A stretch of 64,000 bases of DNA from Deltaproteobacteria bacterium (GTDB lineage: Bacteria; Desulfobacterota; Desulfobulbia; Desulfobulbales; Desulfurivibrionaceae): the NCBI GenBank assembly GCA_021811385.1, contig JAJZPC010000002.1, positions 1 to 64,000 on the forward strand, written 5' to 3'. The notes under the pieces were generated by a model. That model made no database searches. It was given only the letters and a program-made list of their open reading frames with translations, and was not told the DNA's origin. Below, in pieces: positions 8,785-56,778 of this stretch. A program made the translations under genes and the position numbers. Numbering within the stretch: the stretch's first letter is position 1; every line of letters begins with the position of its first letter.

Positions 8785-9798
8785 ATGGCTGATTCAACCT
8801 TGCCGCCATTCATCCAGGCCCTGCTTCAATCCGACGCATACCCGCATCCCGCGCCGGAAATAACCCTGGTGCAAACCCATATCTCCTATGTGCTGCTGGC
8901 CGGCGACTTTGTCTACAAGATCAAAAAACCCGTTGATTTCGGATTTCTCAACTTCACCGCCCTGGAACAGCGCAAGCATTTTTGCGAAGAGGAGCTGGTC
9001 TTAAACCGGCGGCTGTGCCCCTCCCTGTACCTTGGCTTGACGGCGATCACCGAACAGGGCGGAACCTTTTCCCTGGACGGCCCCGGCACCCCGATAGAAT
9101 ACGCGGTGAAGATGGCGCGGATGCCGGAAGAGCGGATGATGGCCAAGGTCATCGCCCAAGGCGGGCTCACCAAGGATATCCTCGATAGGATCATCGCTAT
9201 CCTGGTCCCCTTTTACGCCAAGGCCGAGACCGGCCCGGCCATTGAAAAATTCGGCACGGCCCAGGCGGTGAGCGTCAATGTGCTGGAAAATTTTGAGCAG
9301 ACCCAGGGATTTGTCGGCTGCGCCGCCCTGAGCCAAGGGCAGTTCGAGGCAATCAGCGGCTACGCCCGCGATTTTCTCACACATGAGGATCTCTTTGCCG
9401 GTCGCATCGCTGCCGGGAGGGTCCGCGACTGCCACGGCGACCTCTATTCCGCCAACATCTGCCTGGCCGACGAGATCTACATCTACGACTGCATCGAGTT
9501 CAACCAGCGGTTCCGCTACTGCGATGTGGCAAGCGACGTGGCCTTTCTGGCCATGGATCTCGATTTCCACGGCCTGCCCGAACTTTCCGCGTATTTTATC
9601 GAACGATTCTGCCGGGCTGCGAACGACACCACCCTGCTGCCCATGCTCAACTTCTATAAATGCTACCGGGCTTATGTGCGCGGCAAGATCGGGCTGTTTA
9701 CCGCCCATGCCCCGGAGGTTGATCCAGCCACCGCCGAGAACTGCCTGAACCAGGCCAAAAAATACTTCGCCCTGGCTGAGCGCTATGCCGCAGCCTGA
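8785..9798 (+). CDS. Aminoglycoside phosphotransferase-like kinase (COG2187-type)
   Basis: VYKIKKPVDFGFLNFTALEQRKHFCEEELVLNRRL...CHGDLYSANICL...YDCIEFNQRFRYCDVASDVAFLAMDL. Confidence 0.8.
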   Translation: MADSTLPPFIQALLQSDAYPHPAPEITLVQTHISYVLLAGDFVYKIKKPVDFGFLNFTALEQRKHFCEEELVLNRRLCPSLYLGLTAITEQGGTFSLDGPGTPIEYAVKMARMPEERMMAKVIAQGGLTKDILDRIIAILVPFYAKAETGPAIEKFGTAQAVSVNVLENFEQTQGFVGCAALSQGQFEAISGYARDFLTHEDLFAGRIAAGRVRDCHGDLYSANICLADEIYIYDCIEFNQRFRYCDVASDVAFLAMDLDFHGLPELSAYFIERFCRAANDTTLLPMLNFYKCYRAYVRGKIGLFTAHAPEVDPATAENCLNQAKKYFALAERYAAA

Positions 9799-10351
9799 GC
9801 TGTTCATCTTTTTCGGCCTGATCGCCACGGGCAAGTCCACCGTGGCCCAGGCTTGGGCTACGCGGCGCACGCTTCGTTATTACAACTCCGACGTGGTGCG
9901 CAAGGAGCTGGCCGGTCTCTCTCCGCACGCCCGCCAGCGCGAAACCGCGGATCAGGGGATCTACACCAGCGAGTTCACGGCCAAAACCTATGGAGCCCTG
10001 CTCGAACGGGCCGAACATGATCTGGCCCAAGGCCAAGGCGTGGTGCTTGACGCCTCCTACCAGCGCAAGGCAGACCGCGACCAGGTGCGGATGCTTGCGC
10101 AGCGGTTGGGGGTTCGGCTATACTGTGTGCTCTGTGTCTGTCCGGAAGAGGAAATGAAGCGACGCATGGCCCAGAGAGCTCTTGACCCGCAGGCGGTATC
10201 GGACGGGCGTTGGGAGATTTACCTGAAGCAGAAAGAGCGGTTCGAACCCCCGGCTGAACTTGCCCCGGGGCAGCTCATAACCCTGTCAACCGATCTGCCG
10301 GTGGAGACTGTTTTAGACCAGCTTTCCGCCCACTTGGAGGCGCAGCCATGA
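9785..10351 (+). CDS. AAA family ATPase / P-loop kinase (COG0645-type)
   Basis: FIFFGLIATGKSTVAQAWA Walker A; VVLDASYQRKADRDQVRMLA; overlaps previous CDS by 14 nt. Confidence 0.8.
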   Translation: MPQPELFIFFGLIATGKSTVAQAWATRRTLRYYNSDVVRKELAGLSPHARQRETADQGIYTSEFTAKTYGALLERAEHDLAQGQGVVLDASYQRKADRDQVRMLAQRLGVRLYCVLCVCPEEEMKRRMAQRALDPQAVSDGRWEIYLKQKERFEPPAELAPGQLITLSTDLPVETVLDQLSAHLEAQP

Positions 10352-28145: not shown

Positions 28146-28182
28146 GGGTGTTCCTTTGGAAAAAATGGGCTGGTAACAACAG

Positions 28183-28256
28183 CCCTTCGACAAGCTCAGG
28201 GCGAACGGATGTTTAACGTATTGATATTCCGTTCGTGCTGAGCCTGTCGAAGCACC
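28183..28256. repeat. REPIN-like TTCGACAAGCTCAG inverted repeat
   Basis: cccttcgacaagctcagggcgaacgg ... ccgttcgtgctgagcctgtcgaagcacc. Confidence 0.82.
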
Positions 28257-28298
28257 AGCTTGAAACAAATTCCGAACGGCGCCAAATCCATCGATCTT

Positions 28299-28991: not shown

Positions 28992-29035
28992 ATGCGCTCG
29001 TCAGGCCAGGCCCTGTGGCTTTTTATTTGGTAACT

Positions 29036-29176
29036 ACGAAAAGTAGCGAAACCAACGGAGGTAACTGTTCAGCAGTGCCGCAGATGCTAGGAAGAGACCG
29101 GCGAAGTGTGCTAGTGCACATGAGCCGGCCGATGACAACGCAGATGTGGTGCTGCTGAACAGTTACCCTACTTTTC
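29036..29176 (-). repeat. Structured 3'-end repeat, copy 1 (rapZ/yrfG junction)
   Basis: Arms GGTAACTGTTCAGCAG (29060-29075) / CTGCTGAACAGTTACC (29152-29167), 16/16 complementary; core shared with 31.7 and 55.6 kb copies. Confidence 0.85.
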
Positions 29177-30058
29177 AATATCCCGATGAAACAGCTTCAC
29201 CACCCATTTGCCCCCGAAAAGATGGCCGTGGAGTTCCTCGGCCACGGCCACGGAGCGGTGTTTCCCGCCGGTGCAACCCACCGCGATGGTGAGGTAGGCC
29301 TTGCCTGCCTGTTCAAATTCGGGGAGCAAAAAATCGAGCAGGGCGTGCAGGTGAACGAGAAATTGGCTGCCGCTGGCATTGTCCAGGGCATGACCGGCCA
29401 CCGCCGCGTCCAGGCCGGTTTTTTCCTTGAGCTCCGCCACATAATAGGGGTTGGGCAAAAAACGGACGTCAAAGAGCAGATCCGCCTCGCTGGGCAGCCC
29501 ATGCTTATGGCCAAAAGAAAGGACATTGACCCGCATGGCGGCAACCGGGGAGGCATCGTCCAGCAGGAGCTTGTGCCGCAATTCCGTGGGGGTCAGGGTG
29601 CTGGTGTCGATCACCCGGTCGGCCAATTGCCGGAGTCCGGCCAGCCGCTTCTTCTCCGAGGAGATCCCGTCCTGGACCAACCCGACCTGGGCCAGGGGAT
29701 GGGCGCGCCGCAACTGGCTGTAGCGGCGGAGCAGGACCGTGTCGTTGGCTTCGAGAAAAATGATCTGCGCCAGGGCGGTCTTGGGTTTCACCTCTTTGAG
29801 CACCCCGGCCAGGGCCGGGGCGAGCTCGGCATCCCTGGCATCCATGACCAGGGCCAAACGGTGCGGACCGTCCGCCCGCCTGGCCATGCCGTCGAGCAGG
29901 GGCAACAGGAGAAAAACCGGGAGATTGTCGATGCACAGGAAACCGGCATCCTCGAAGACATTGAGGGCCGTGGACTTGCCTGCCCCGGAAAGGCCGGTGA
30001 TGATGGTCAGGGTCAGGGGATGGCCGTTGGCTTCATGCATGGCGGTGTGATGCGGCAA
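29168..30058 (-). CDS. rapZ: RNase adapter protein RapZ / YvcJ family nucleotide-binding protein
   Basis: LTIITGLSGAGKSTALNVFEDAGFLCIDNLPV...FDVRFLPNPYYV...IAVGCTGGKHRSVAVAEEL. Confidence 0.94.
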   Translation of the reverse strand: MPHHTAMHEANGHPLTLTIITGLSGAGKSTALNVFEDAGFLCIDNLPVFLLLPLLDGMARRADGPHRLALVMDARDAELAPALAGVLKEVKPKTALAQIIFLEANDTVLLRRYSQLRRAHPLAQVGLVQDGISSEKKRLAGLRQLADRVIDTSTLTPTELRHKLLLDDASPVAAMRVNVLSFGHKHGLPSEADLLFDVRFLPNPYYVAELKEKTGLDAAVAGHALDNASGSQFLVHLHALLDFLLPEFEQAGKAYLTIAVGCTGGKHRSVAVAEELHGHLFGGKWVVKLFHRDIEK

Positions 30059-31697: not shown

Positions 31698-31812
31698 GAA
31701 AGAAACCGCCCAGCAGTGCCGCAGATGCTAGGAAGAGGCCGGCGAAGTGTGCTATATTGCACACGAGCCGACCGATGACAACGCAGATGCGGTGCTGCTG
31801 GGCGGTTTCTAC
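31698..31812 (-). repeat. Structured 3'-end repeat, copy 2 (lptB/rpoN junction)
   Basis: Arms AGAAACCGCCCAGCAG (31701-31716) / CTGCTGGGCGGTTTCT (31795-31810), 16/16 complementary; shared core. Confidence 0.88.
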
Positions 31813-32531
31813 AGGGTAAAGTTTTCTCCGAGGTACATCCGCCGGGCTTCCTCGCTGCCCACAATCGCTTCGGCGTCGCCATGGATCAGGATCTTTCCCT
31901 GGCTGACGATATAGGCATGATCACAGACGGAAAGGGTTTCCCGGACATTGTGATCGGAGATCAGCACCCCCAGGCCGCGGGTTTTCAGATTGCCGATGAT
32001 CTGCTGGAGATCGGCCACCGATAACGGATCGATCCCGGCAAAGGGCTCGTCCAGCAAAATAAAATGCGGATTGGTGGCCAGGGCCCGCATGATCTCCACC
32101 CGGCGGCGTTCGCCCCCGGAGAGGGAATGACCCCGGTTGCCGGCCAGATGGCTGATCTTCAGGTCTTCCATGAGCTGGCCGACCCGGGTGTTGATCTCTT
32201 TTTTGGCAAGACCGAGCGGCTCAAGGACGATGCGGACATTTTCCTCCACGGTGAGTTTTTTAAAGACCGAGGACTCCTGCGGCAGATAGGAGAGTCCCTT
32301 GACTGCCCGCTGGTGGATGGGCAGGGAGGTGATATCCTCGCCATCGAGCAGGATCACGCCTGCGTCCGGCCGGACAAAACCGGCAATGGCATAGAAGGTG
32401 GTGGTTTTTCCGGCCCCGTTCGGACCGAGCAACCCGACCACCGTGCCGGTCTCAACCCGCAGGCTGATCCCGTCGACAACCGTCCGGTTTTTATAGCGTT
32501 TGACAATCTCTTGTGTTTCGAGAACAGACAA
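31809..32531 (-). CDS. lptB: LPS export ABC transporter ATP-binding protein LptB
   Basis: [23 protein letters not shown]...[38 protein letters not shown]; start (TTG) uncertain. Confidence 0.93.
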
Positions 32532-55599: not shown

Positions 55600-55742
55600 C
55601 CAGAGTAATCGGTCACAGGGTGCCGCAGATGCGCGAAAGAGGCCTGAGAAGTGTGCTATTGCACACGAACAGGCCGATGACAGCTAAGCGAGCGTGAGCG
55701 AGACTGCGAAGCAGATGCGGTGCCCTGTGGCCGATTACGGGT
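55600..55742 (-). repeat. Structured 3'-end repeat, copy 3 (pcm 3' end)
   Basis: Arms GTAATCGGTCACAGGG (55605-55620) / CCCTGTGGCCGATTAC (55723-55738), 15/16 plus one possible G-U; shared core with an about 27-nt insertion. Confidence 0.85.
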
Positions 55743-56396
55743 TTAGGCCGCCTTCCAGCCATAGGTGCCGACCAGCTTGACAAAGCGAACGCTTTCCACC
55801 TCGGTGGTTGTCACCACGCCCCCTTCTTTTCTGACGACCATGAGGGTTTGCCCTTCCAGATCACCCACCGGTAAAACCATGACCCCCGGGTCGGCCAACT
55901 GATCCACCAGCGGCTGCGGAATCAGCGGCCCGGCGGCGGTGACGATGATCGCCGCAAAGGGGGCATTTTCCGGCCAGCCTTCGGTGCCGTCCGCGACCTT
56001 GCTCATGATGTTGTAGAGCTGGAGCCGGTCGAAGGTGCGCCGGGCGCGGGCCAGCAGGGGCTTGATCCGTTCGACCGTATACACCCGCTCGCAGAGCGCG
56101 GCGAGAATAGCGGACTGATAGCCGCAGCCGGTGCCGATCTCAAGCACCTTCTCCTGCCCGGTGAGCTGGAGCAACTGGGTCATGAGGGCCACCACATAGG
56201 GCTGGGAAATGGTCTGCCCCTGGCCGATGGGCAGGGGAAAATCCCCATAGGCTTGGGCATGCAGCGCATCGGAGACAAAAAGATGGCGGGGAACCACCTC
56301 CATGGCATGGAGCACCGCCGGATCATCGATGCCCCTGGGGAGCAATTGCTCCTCGACCATGCGGGTCCGGAATTTTTCGTACTTGTTACTCCGCAC
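55743..56396 (-). CDS. pcm: Protein-L-isoaspartate O-methyltransferase
   Basis: MVEEQLLPRGIDDPAVLHAMEVVPRHLFV...GQTISQPYVVALMTQLL...VLEIGTGCGYQSAILA; GTG start inferred. Confidence 0.94.
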   Translation of the reverse strand: MRSNKYEKFRTRMVEEQLLPRGIDDPAVLHAMEVVPRHLFVSDALHAQAYGDFPLPIGQGQTISQPYVVALMTQLLQLTGQEKVLEIGTGCGYQSAILAALCERVYTVERIKPLLARARRTFDRLQLYNIMSKVADGTEGWPENAPFAAIIVTAAGPLIPQPLVDQLADPGVMVLPVGDLEGQTLMVVRKEGGVVTTTEVESVRFVKLVGTYGWKAA

Positions 56397-56778
56397 GCGG
56401 TCCACTAACGTCAATGCCGCTTTCCTTGAGTTCCTCTTCGTTGTAGGCGCGATAGAGGCAGGTGGAAACCGTGTCCCCGGCAAAGGTTATGGTCACCACA
56501 TCATAGTTTTCCGAACCGAGCTTGGCCCCGATGTAAGGGGTTTTTCTCAGAAGGCTTTGCTTCACCTCGCGGTAGACCCAGATCTCGCCTTGCTCTCCTT
56601 TCTGTTTGTAATCGGGGGCGCCAAGGGTGGCAAGCACCTCCTTCTGGGTCAGGTTGGGCGTAATCAGGCAGATATCCGATGAAAGATGGCGCACTGGTTC
56701 CCGGTAAAAACAGCCTGAACCGAGAAACCCCAGCAGACAGAGGCACACGACAAAACGCACGGGGAAACCATATCTCAT
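56386..56778 (-). CDS. Small lipoprotein, SmpA/BamE-like
   Basis: Lipobox LLGFLGSGCF; PNLTQKEVLATLGAPDYKQKGEQGEIWVY. Confidence 0.6.
   Translation of the reverse strand: MRYGFPVRFVVCLCLLGFLGSGCFYREPVRHLSSDICLITPNLTQKEVLATLGAPDYKQKGEQGEIWVYREVKQSLLRKTPYIGAKLGSENYDVVTITFAGDTVSTCLYRAYNEEELKESGIDVSGPRAE

Follow-up and report, generated by a model that had tools for sequence, protein, structure and literature searches.

A probable IS66-type MITE of Desulfobulbales carries a covarying hairpin that abuts stop codons and may be kept paired as RNA

Among described bacterial repeats, ERIC, NEMIS/Correia and RUP resemble the one reported here in being ∼107–155 bp long, intergenic, abundant and non-autonomous. 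RUP has been linked to an IS in trans, and the RNA folds of ERIC and NEMIS affect neighbouring mRNAs (PMC2229807). The ends and duplications of these three are of TA type according to the table in PMC2229807, in contrast to the GTAA ends and 8-bp duplications described below, and they differ further from our repeat in its IS66 link, its tight placement at stop codons and its folded strand, which is mostly antisense to the adjoining gene. YPAL (Yersinia palindromic sequences) is comparable in size and likewise palindromic, occurs at filled and empty sites and is transcribed together with upstream genes, but has internal inverted repeats and duplications of 3 to 26 bp rather than terminal repeats and a constant 8 bp (PMC2229807). 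REP/REPIN sequences with their RAYT are likewise palindromes present in high copy near gene 3′ ends; the element described here differs in being far longer, in having terminal repeats and target duplications, and in its association with IS66 and not with a RAYT.

The repeat was found in a 64,000-nucleotide stretch of DNA (the window) from a 2.6-Mb Desulfobulbales MAG of 108 contigs and 75% completeness. A first-pass annotation, made from the letters of the window alone, had described three intergenic copies with copy-specific, mutually complementary arms around a common core, all in one orientation and each abutting the stop codon of a minus-strand gene (rapZ, lptB and pcm), and every part of that description was borne out (Table 1). 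It had also called the repeat dispersed. A search with copy 1 as the query, followed by a profile search, recovered 40 copies in this genome, far beyond chance.

Table 1. Repeat copies and adjoining genes in the window
Feature	Position	Strand	Remarks
Copy 1, left-end remnant (GTAACTACGAAAAGTAGCGAAACCAACGGAG; GTAACTACGAAAAGTAGCGAAACC...), shortened	29030..29060	+	Alignment by eye to GTAACTATCCAGCTTGATGCCGGAATGGAACGAAAACCACGGAAT, the ∼45-bp extension found in other copies
Copy 1, hairpin unit, 106 bp; right arm is the right terminal inverted repeat	29061..29166	+ (folded strand)	
rapZ ORF; stop codon 1 bp from copy 1	29168..30058	-	Name from first-pass annotation and sequence
Copy 2, hairpin unit, arms GAAACCGCCCAGCAG/CTGCTGGGCGGTTTC	31702..31809	+	Shares its final base with the end of the lptB stop codon (1-bp overlap)
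lptB ORF; terminates at copy 2	31809..32531	-	Name from first-pass annotation and sequence
Copy 3, hairpin unit, arms GTAATCGGTCACAGG/CCTGTGGCCGATTAC	55605..55738	+	
Copy 3, additional 26-nt insert GCTAAGCGAGCGTGAGCGAGACTGCG	55683..55708	+	Missing in paralogous/homeologous locus L032 (contig C61)
pcm ORF; stop codon 4 bp from copy 3	55743..56405	-	Name from first-pass annotation and sequence

Two versions of the pcm region, similarly flanked, are present in the assembly (window 55605–56405, and L032 on G000:C61), and the 26-nt insert is found in the repeat of one version and absent from that of the other, which points to a duplication or to mixed strains in the MAG. Beside copy 1, at window ∼28180–28290, ORF translations reading ...FALSLSKG... 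and ...LRQAQHERN... are as expected of a dispersed CTTGACAAGCTCAGC-type repeat.

The full element is ∼150 bp long and consists of a ∼45-bp left end, made up of the left terminal repeat (GTAACTATCCAGC...) and a further ∼30 bp, followed by the 106-bp hairpin, whose 3′ (right) arm is itself the right terminal inverted repeat. The ∼45-bp left extension is present in several copies, where it begins with GTAACTATCCAGCTTG. On the + strand of the window, the consensus of the hairpin over the 40 copies is GTAACTGTTCAGCAGTGCCGCAGATGCGCGGAAGAGGCCTGCGAAGTGTGCTATTGCACATGAGCAGGCCGATGACAAAGCAGATGCGGTGCTGCTGGACAGTTAC. The arms of all these copies are variants of a single arm, with the consensus GTAACTGTTCAGCAG, and their changes are compensated. 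The apparent absence of conserved terminal repeats in the first-pass annotation was therefore an effect of its small sample, and the single-arm consensus rules out the host-derived arms proposed there. The arms are the element's own, one of them being the terminal inverted repeat common to IS66-family transposons with 8-bp target duplications, and for the same reasons the idea of a core that inserts into existing terminator loops finds no support. A short sequence left of copy 1, GAAAAGTAG (29038–29046), had been taken for an inverted duplicate of the rapZ end. It sits within the left-end remnant, which is also found in the ortholog L113, and since L113 reads GGAAAGTAG there, the likeness to the rapZ end looks fortuitous.

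In its long form the repeat is flanked by 8-bp duplications, such as AAAATTAC (L017), TATTTTTT (L039), ATTTCCTG (L005) and AAGCTTGC (L034). Target duplications matching at ≥7 of 8 bp were found in 62 of 213 elements, compared with 0–2 when left and right flanks were shuffled. The relative G043 carries near-identical 153-bp copies with 8-bp duplications and a second subfamily with exact GTAACTATCCAGC ends. Two variant loci were seen in the genome of the window: at L034 (G000:C96, ∼9400–10010) an IS200-like tnpA (∼142 aa) is inserted between the left end and the hairpin, the outer 8-bp duplication being intact, and at L045 (G000:C15:426–465) a lone left end (GTAACTATCCAGCTCCGGGCTGGAAAGG), lacking the hairpin, immediately precedes a likely hydrogenase large-subunit gene.

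Elements of related genomes connect these ends to transposases. In G048, a 1729-bp element encodes a 475-aa IS66-family transposase (PF03050, E=5.7e-47; NF033517, E=3.4e-86); the two ends of the element carry GTAACTATCCAGCT, and its 8-bp duplication is GAATATTT. This element (L108) is complete and holds no such hairpin. A search of 258 genomes of the order gave seven further IS66 loci, which have ends such as GTAACTATTCAGC, GTAACTACTCAGCC and GTAACTACTCAC, with exact 8-bp duplications. The GTAACTATCCAGC terminal repeats are common to the MITEs and to the IS66 loci L108/L167, and seven other loci show small variations. Ends and duplication length held in common with IS66-family elements of the same order identify the repeat as an IS66-type MITE. 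The autonomous elements, which we take to be of the single-ORF, ISBst12-like type, have the terminal repeat GTAACTAYYCAGC and the 8-bp target duplication in common with it, but are 1.6–1.7 kb long with a transposase gene, whereas the repeat is ∼150 bp and non-coding. No IS66 transposase was found in the genome of the window or in several copy-rich relatives, which casts doubt on the link and counts against our main explanation (set out below), while the ends common to eight IS66 loci support it. Judged from these sequences, IS66-family transposases of related genomes probably move the repeat in trans.

The fold of the hairpin was set by hand as 38 pairs and tested against 500 shuffles. Over the 40 copies, 96.5% of paired cells are complementary and 22 of the 38 pairs have changed on both sides, compared with a shuffle mean of 8.3 and none of the 500 shuffles reaching the observed value (uncorrected for phylogeny); sliding the partners abolishes the signal. 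The covarying structure noticed in three copies thus holds for the family. The non-Watson–Crick cells are strongly biased to one strand, with 160 G.T and 13 A.C (40 copies, uncorrected for phylogeny). The folding energies differ between strands as well, being -72.5 kcal/mol for the consensus and -53.1 for its reverse strand, and -54.9 and -15.5 kcal/mol, respectively, for the alignment. Of 207 copies, 170 retain two adjacent G.T wobbles (positions 16–17 with 90–91). In two internal loops GA faces GA, in 179 of 207 copies for one loop and 179 of 209 for the other; these loops may form sheared G.A pairs or a kink-turn-like motif. Covariation beyond column make-up, combined with a bias to one strand, is the pattern of a functional structured RNA (again uncorrected for phylogeny), and pairing that is kept while the letters change suggests that the fold itself does something.

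Orthologous sites allow the same changes to be followed in place. Among congeners, G004 has an empty rapZ site, G015 and G007 a filled one, and G014 and G005 a decayed one. In other congeneric loci (L112, L115, L116, L126 and L118, L123), the rapZ spacer holds other repeats, namely a CCCTCCCCCC...GGGAGGGGGAG palindrome and CCTTCGACAGGCTCAGG-type sequences. The lptB site is filled in seven species, and its six congener orthologs have other, mostly complementary arms (e.g. CCGCCCAGCAG/CTGCTGGGCGG, CCGTGCCGCGG/CTGCGGCACGG and CCGTCTAGCAG/CTGCTGGATGG), so that at orthologous sites the arms are rewritten and the pairing is retained. Double changes from one Watson–Crick pair to another number 55 (in 23 orthologous groups), against ∼22 double changes of any kind expected if the two sides were independent. 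Paired and unpaired bases change at an equal rate (0.102), and thus the pairing itself is what is kept. Single changes comprise 152 G.T and 66 A.C. In (-,-) contexts G.T outnumbers A.C less strongly (103:54) than elsewhere (49:12), a difference that selection on the transcribed strand would predict, although these counts are small and non-independent. The G.T bias and the in-place compensation form the basis on which we infer selection on a structured RNA.

These data can also be read at the level of DNA, the arms being kept complementary by hairpin-templated (quasipalindrome) correction or by exchange between copies, and the core binding a protein for transposition, with no function of the RNA in the host. 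In the complete genome G019, arm position 5 takes each of the four Watson–Crick pairs (18, 10, 9 and 5), with mismatches in 0 of 42, which could reflect either strong selection or arm-to-arm DNA copying. Identical 26-nt inserts occupy fixed loop sites of different loci and are missing from the ortholog (L053/L262, L215/L281), a pattern suggestive of a secondary insertion or of copies exchanging sequence, and the core recurs in a second mobile element (see below). However, copying predicts perfect arms on both strands alike, contrary to the G.T excess and the retained tandem wobbles, and immobile copies should be free to lose their pairing, yet it is kept at orthologous sites. We consider a purely DNA-level device improbable, if still a serious alternative.

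Genes around the copies were called with a small home-made codon-usage caller. A minus-strand gene lies to the right of 31 of the 40 copies in the genome of the window, and in 28 its stop codon falls -5 to +7 bp from the right end, whereas the chance that a random insertable position in the window lies ≤5 bp from a stop in that orientation is 0.026. Over 222 elements, 113 of 141 right-side stops lie no more than 5 bp from the right end; 35 of these stops overlap it by 4–5 bp, the TAA of the terminal repeat being placed to serve as the stop (about a quarter of stop-side cases). The position recurs in several lineages, and in G019 35 of 49 copies lie within -4 to +8 bp of a stop. Between tandem genes one orientation predominates (97:41 overall, 20:4 in the genome of the window and 23:3 in G019), such that the folded strand is mostly antisense to the gene whose stop codon the repeat abuts. 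With respect to replication, no clear orientation bias was seen in G019, as judged by eye with the origin assumed at base 1.

This placement could come about if the transposase simply targeted gene ends, with no later retention and no effect on the host. Some copies with intact duplications have a stop codon inside or adjoining the 8-bp duplication, and guaA-like gene ends have been struck in several lineages. Against this, the 13 young copies in G043 lie scattered, every one more than 10 bp from the nearest stop, and the bias in orientation between tandem genes is left to explain. We think targeting alone less likely than not, and the stop-proximal copies of G019, set beside the young copies of G043, are read mainly as retention after insertion, to which some insertion targeting to stops may add.

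Gene 3′ ends and strong hairpins would also suit an intrinsic terminator duplicated many times. A run of ≥4 T within 12 nt is infrequent after the copies, at 10.8% in one direction and 7.7% in the other, compared with a background of 3.7%, and the unit is mobile, with target duplications; on the T-run frequencies we rejected the terminator, which is very improbable. Position after stop codons and a single folded strand are features of attC sites and of terminator targeting, and the same two features of the repeat recall an attC-like, IS200/IS605/REP-like or group IIC intron-like target or product of single-strand hairpin chemistry. To our knowledge, none of these mechanisms makes terminal repeats and 8-bp duplications. 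Elements of the IS200/IS605 or REP/RAYT kind would have neither duplication nor terminal repeats, and here both are present. An integron attC site would be expected in a cassette array beside an integron integrase and to have attC core boxes. Copies of the repeat are dispersed singly at housekeeping genes, and the sole IS200-like tnpA seen is the later insertion at L034. The target duplications led us to discard the attC, RAYT and group IIC ideas, to which we attach hardly any weight.

From the mobility, fold and stop-codon placement described above, we favour as probable the reading of the repeat as a non-autonomous MITE (∼150 bp) of the single-ORF IS66 type, whose hairpin is kept paired after insertion and would have a role at transcript ends. 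The IS66-family transposases of related genomes would move it in trans. Most surviving copies meet a stop codon with their right end, and for about a quarter of the stop-side cases the TAA of the terminal repeat is in place as that stop. The hairpin is then kept paired, with a G.U-type bias on one strand and the RNA as the molecule presumably selected. As its likeliest effect on the host, such a hairpin would put a stable double-stranded knob at the transcript end, with a core that resembles protein-binding sites (GA/GA loops, tandem G.U), and might shield the end of the gene from exonucleases, or from antisense or readthrough transcription. The 3′-UTR structured RNA put forward in the first-pass annotation may still apply, but between tandem genes the strand with the conserved fold mostly lies antisense to the gene that the copy abuts, an arrangement that suits no standard 3′-UTR role and counts against our main explanation. 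Insulation against antisense or readthrough transcription would fit such a strand. By analogy, ERIC, NEMIS/Correia, RUP and YPAL may work alike at the RNA level.

A related hairpin core is held by a ∼257-bp element in other Desulfobacterota families (L347, L352, L353, L358 and L364–L383). This element consists of an outer stem, the core hairpin, a CCC-NNN-GGG mini-hairpin in some copies, and a third stem. It terminates in (A/T)CCCRGATTATGC, and of the 13 loci with scorable ends, in a set that lists most loci once per strand, 12 show a matching TNA duplication of 3 bp. BLAST matches, partial ones included, number 43 in G590, 47 in G497, 45 in G608 and 32 in G593. Related multi-branch elements at L348, L349 and L357 have the same core and other outer stems (TCCTAAATTGAGC/GCTCAATTTAGGA; CCTGAATTTTGCA/TGCAAGATTCAGG). 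No transposase partner was found for this second carrier, and the one 1.4-kb candidate for an autonomous partner, in G590, proved to be a pair of distinct short repeats flanking host genes. With other ends and a TNA duplication, the ∼257-bp element indicates that two different transposon classes carry a related core. It is tempting to see the core as an independent functional RNA module spread by at least two unrelated classes of non-autonomous transposon (IS66-type with 8 bp, ∼257 bp with TNA) and kept folded by hosts at dozens of gene ends, a tentative proposal towards which we lean less than away; the two carriers may instead reflect common descent with swapped ends.

The family is missing from Rfam, where no relevant match was obtained at the gathering score or at E up to 5, in line with the first-pass annotation, which had recognised no named family. 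Plasmid, phage and viral-contig collections gave no match, and no description of the repeat was found in the openly licensed texts searched. A covariance model found matches in 52 of 58 relatives, which fall into 26 of 30 genera (with up to 67 candidates per genome scored), and in G019 it matched no fewer than 148 places (up to 150 scored); carriers include Desulfobulbaceae, Desulfurivibrio and 'Deltaproteobacteria' MAGs. With 9 candidates scored per genome across the phylum, at least 30 of 395 genomes match, at least 21 of them outside the order. The first-pass reading is partly supported overall, holding for a dispersed, covarying, stop-abutting repeat with empty sites and no Rfam family, and finding no support for host-derived arms, missing terminal repeats or terminator-loop insertion.

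MITE-borne hairpins are known, and whether their folds matter after insertion can rarely be tested. In these sulfur-cycling Desulfobulbales, the repeat offers congeneric orthologs in which arms are rewritten, pairing is kept and one strand is preferred, in dozens to >100 copies per genome at stop codons, and the second carrier gives an independent comparison for the question of the fold. If the fold is functional, dozens of transcript ends throughout a bacterial order would owe their present form to one mobile element.
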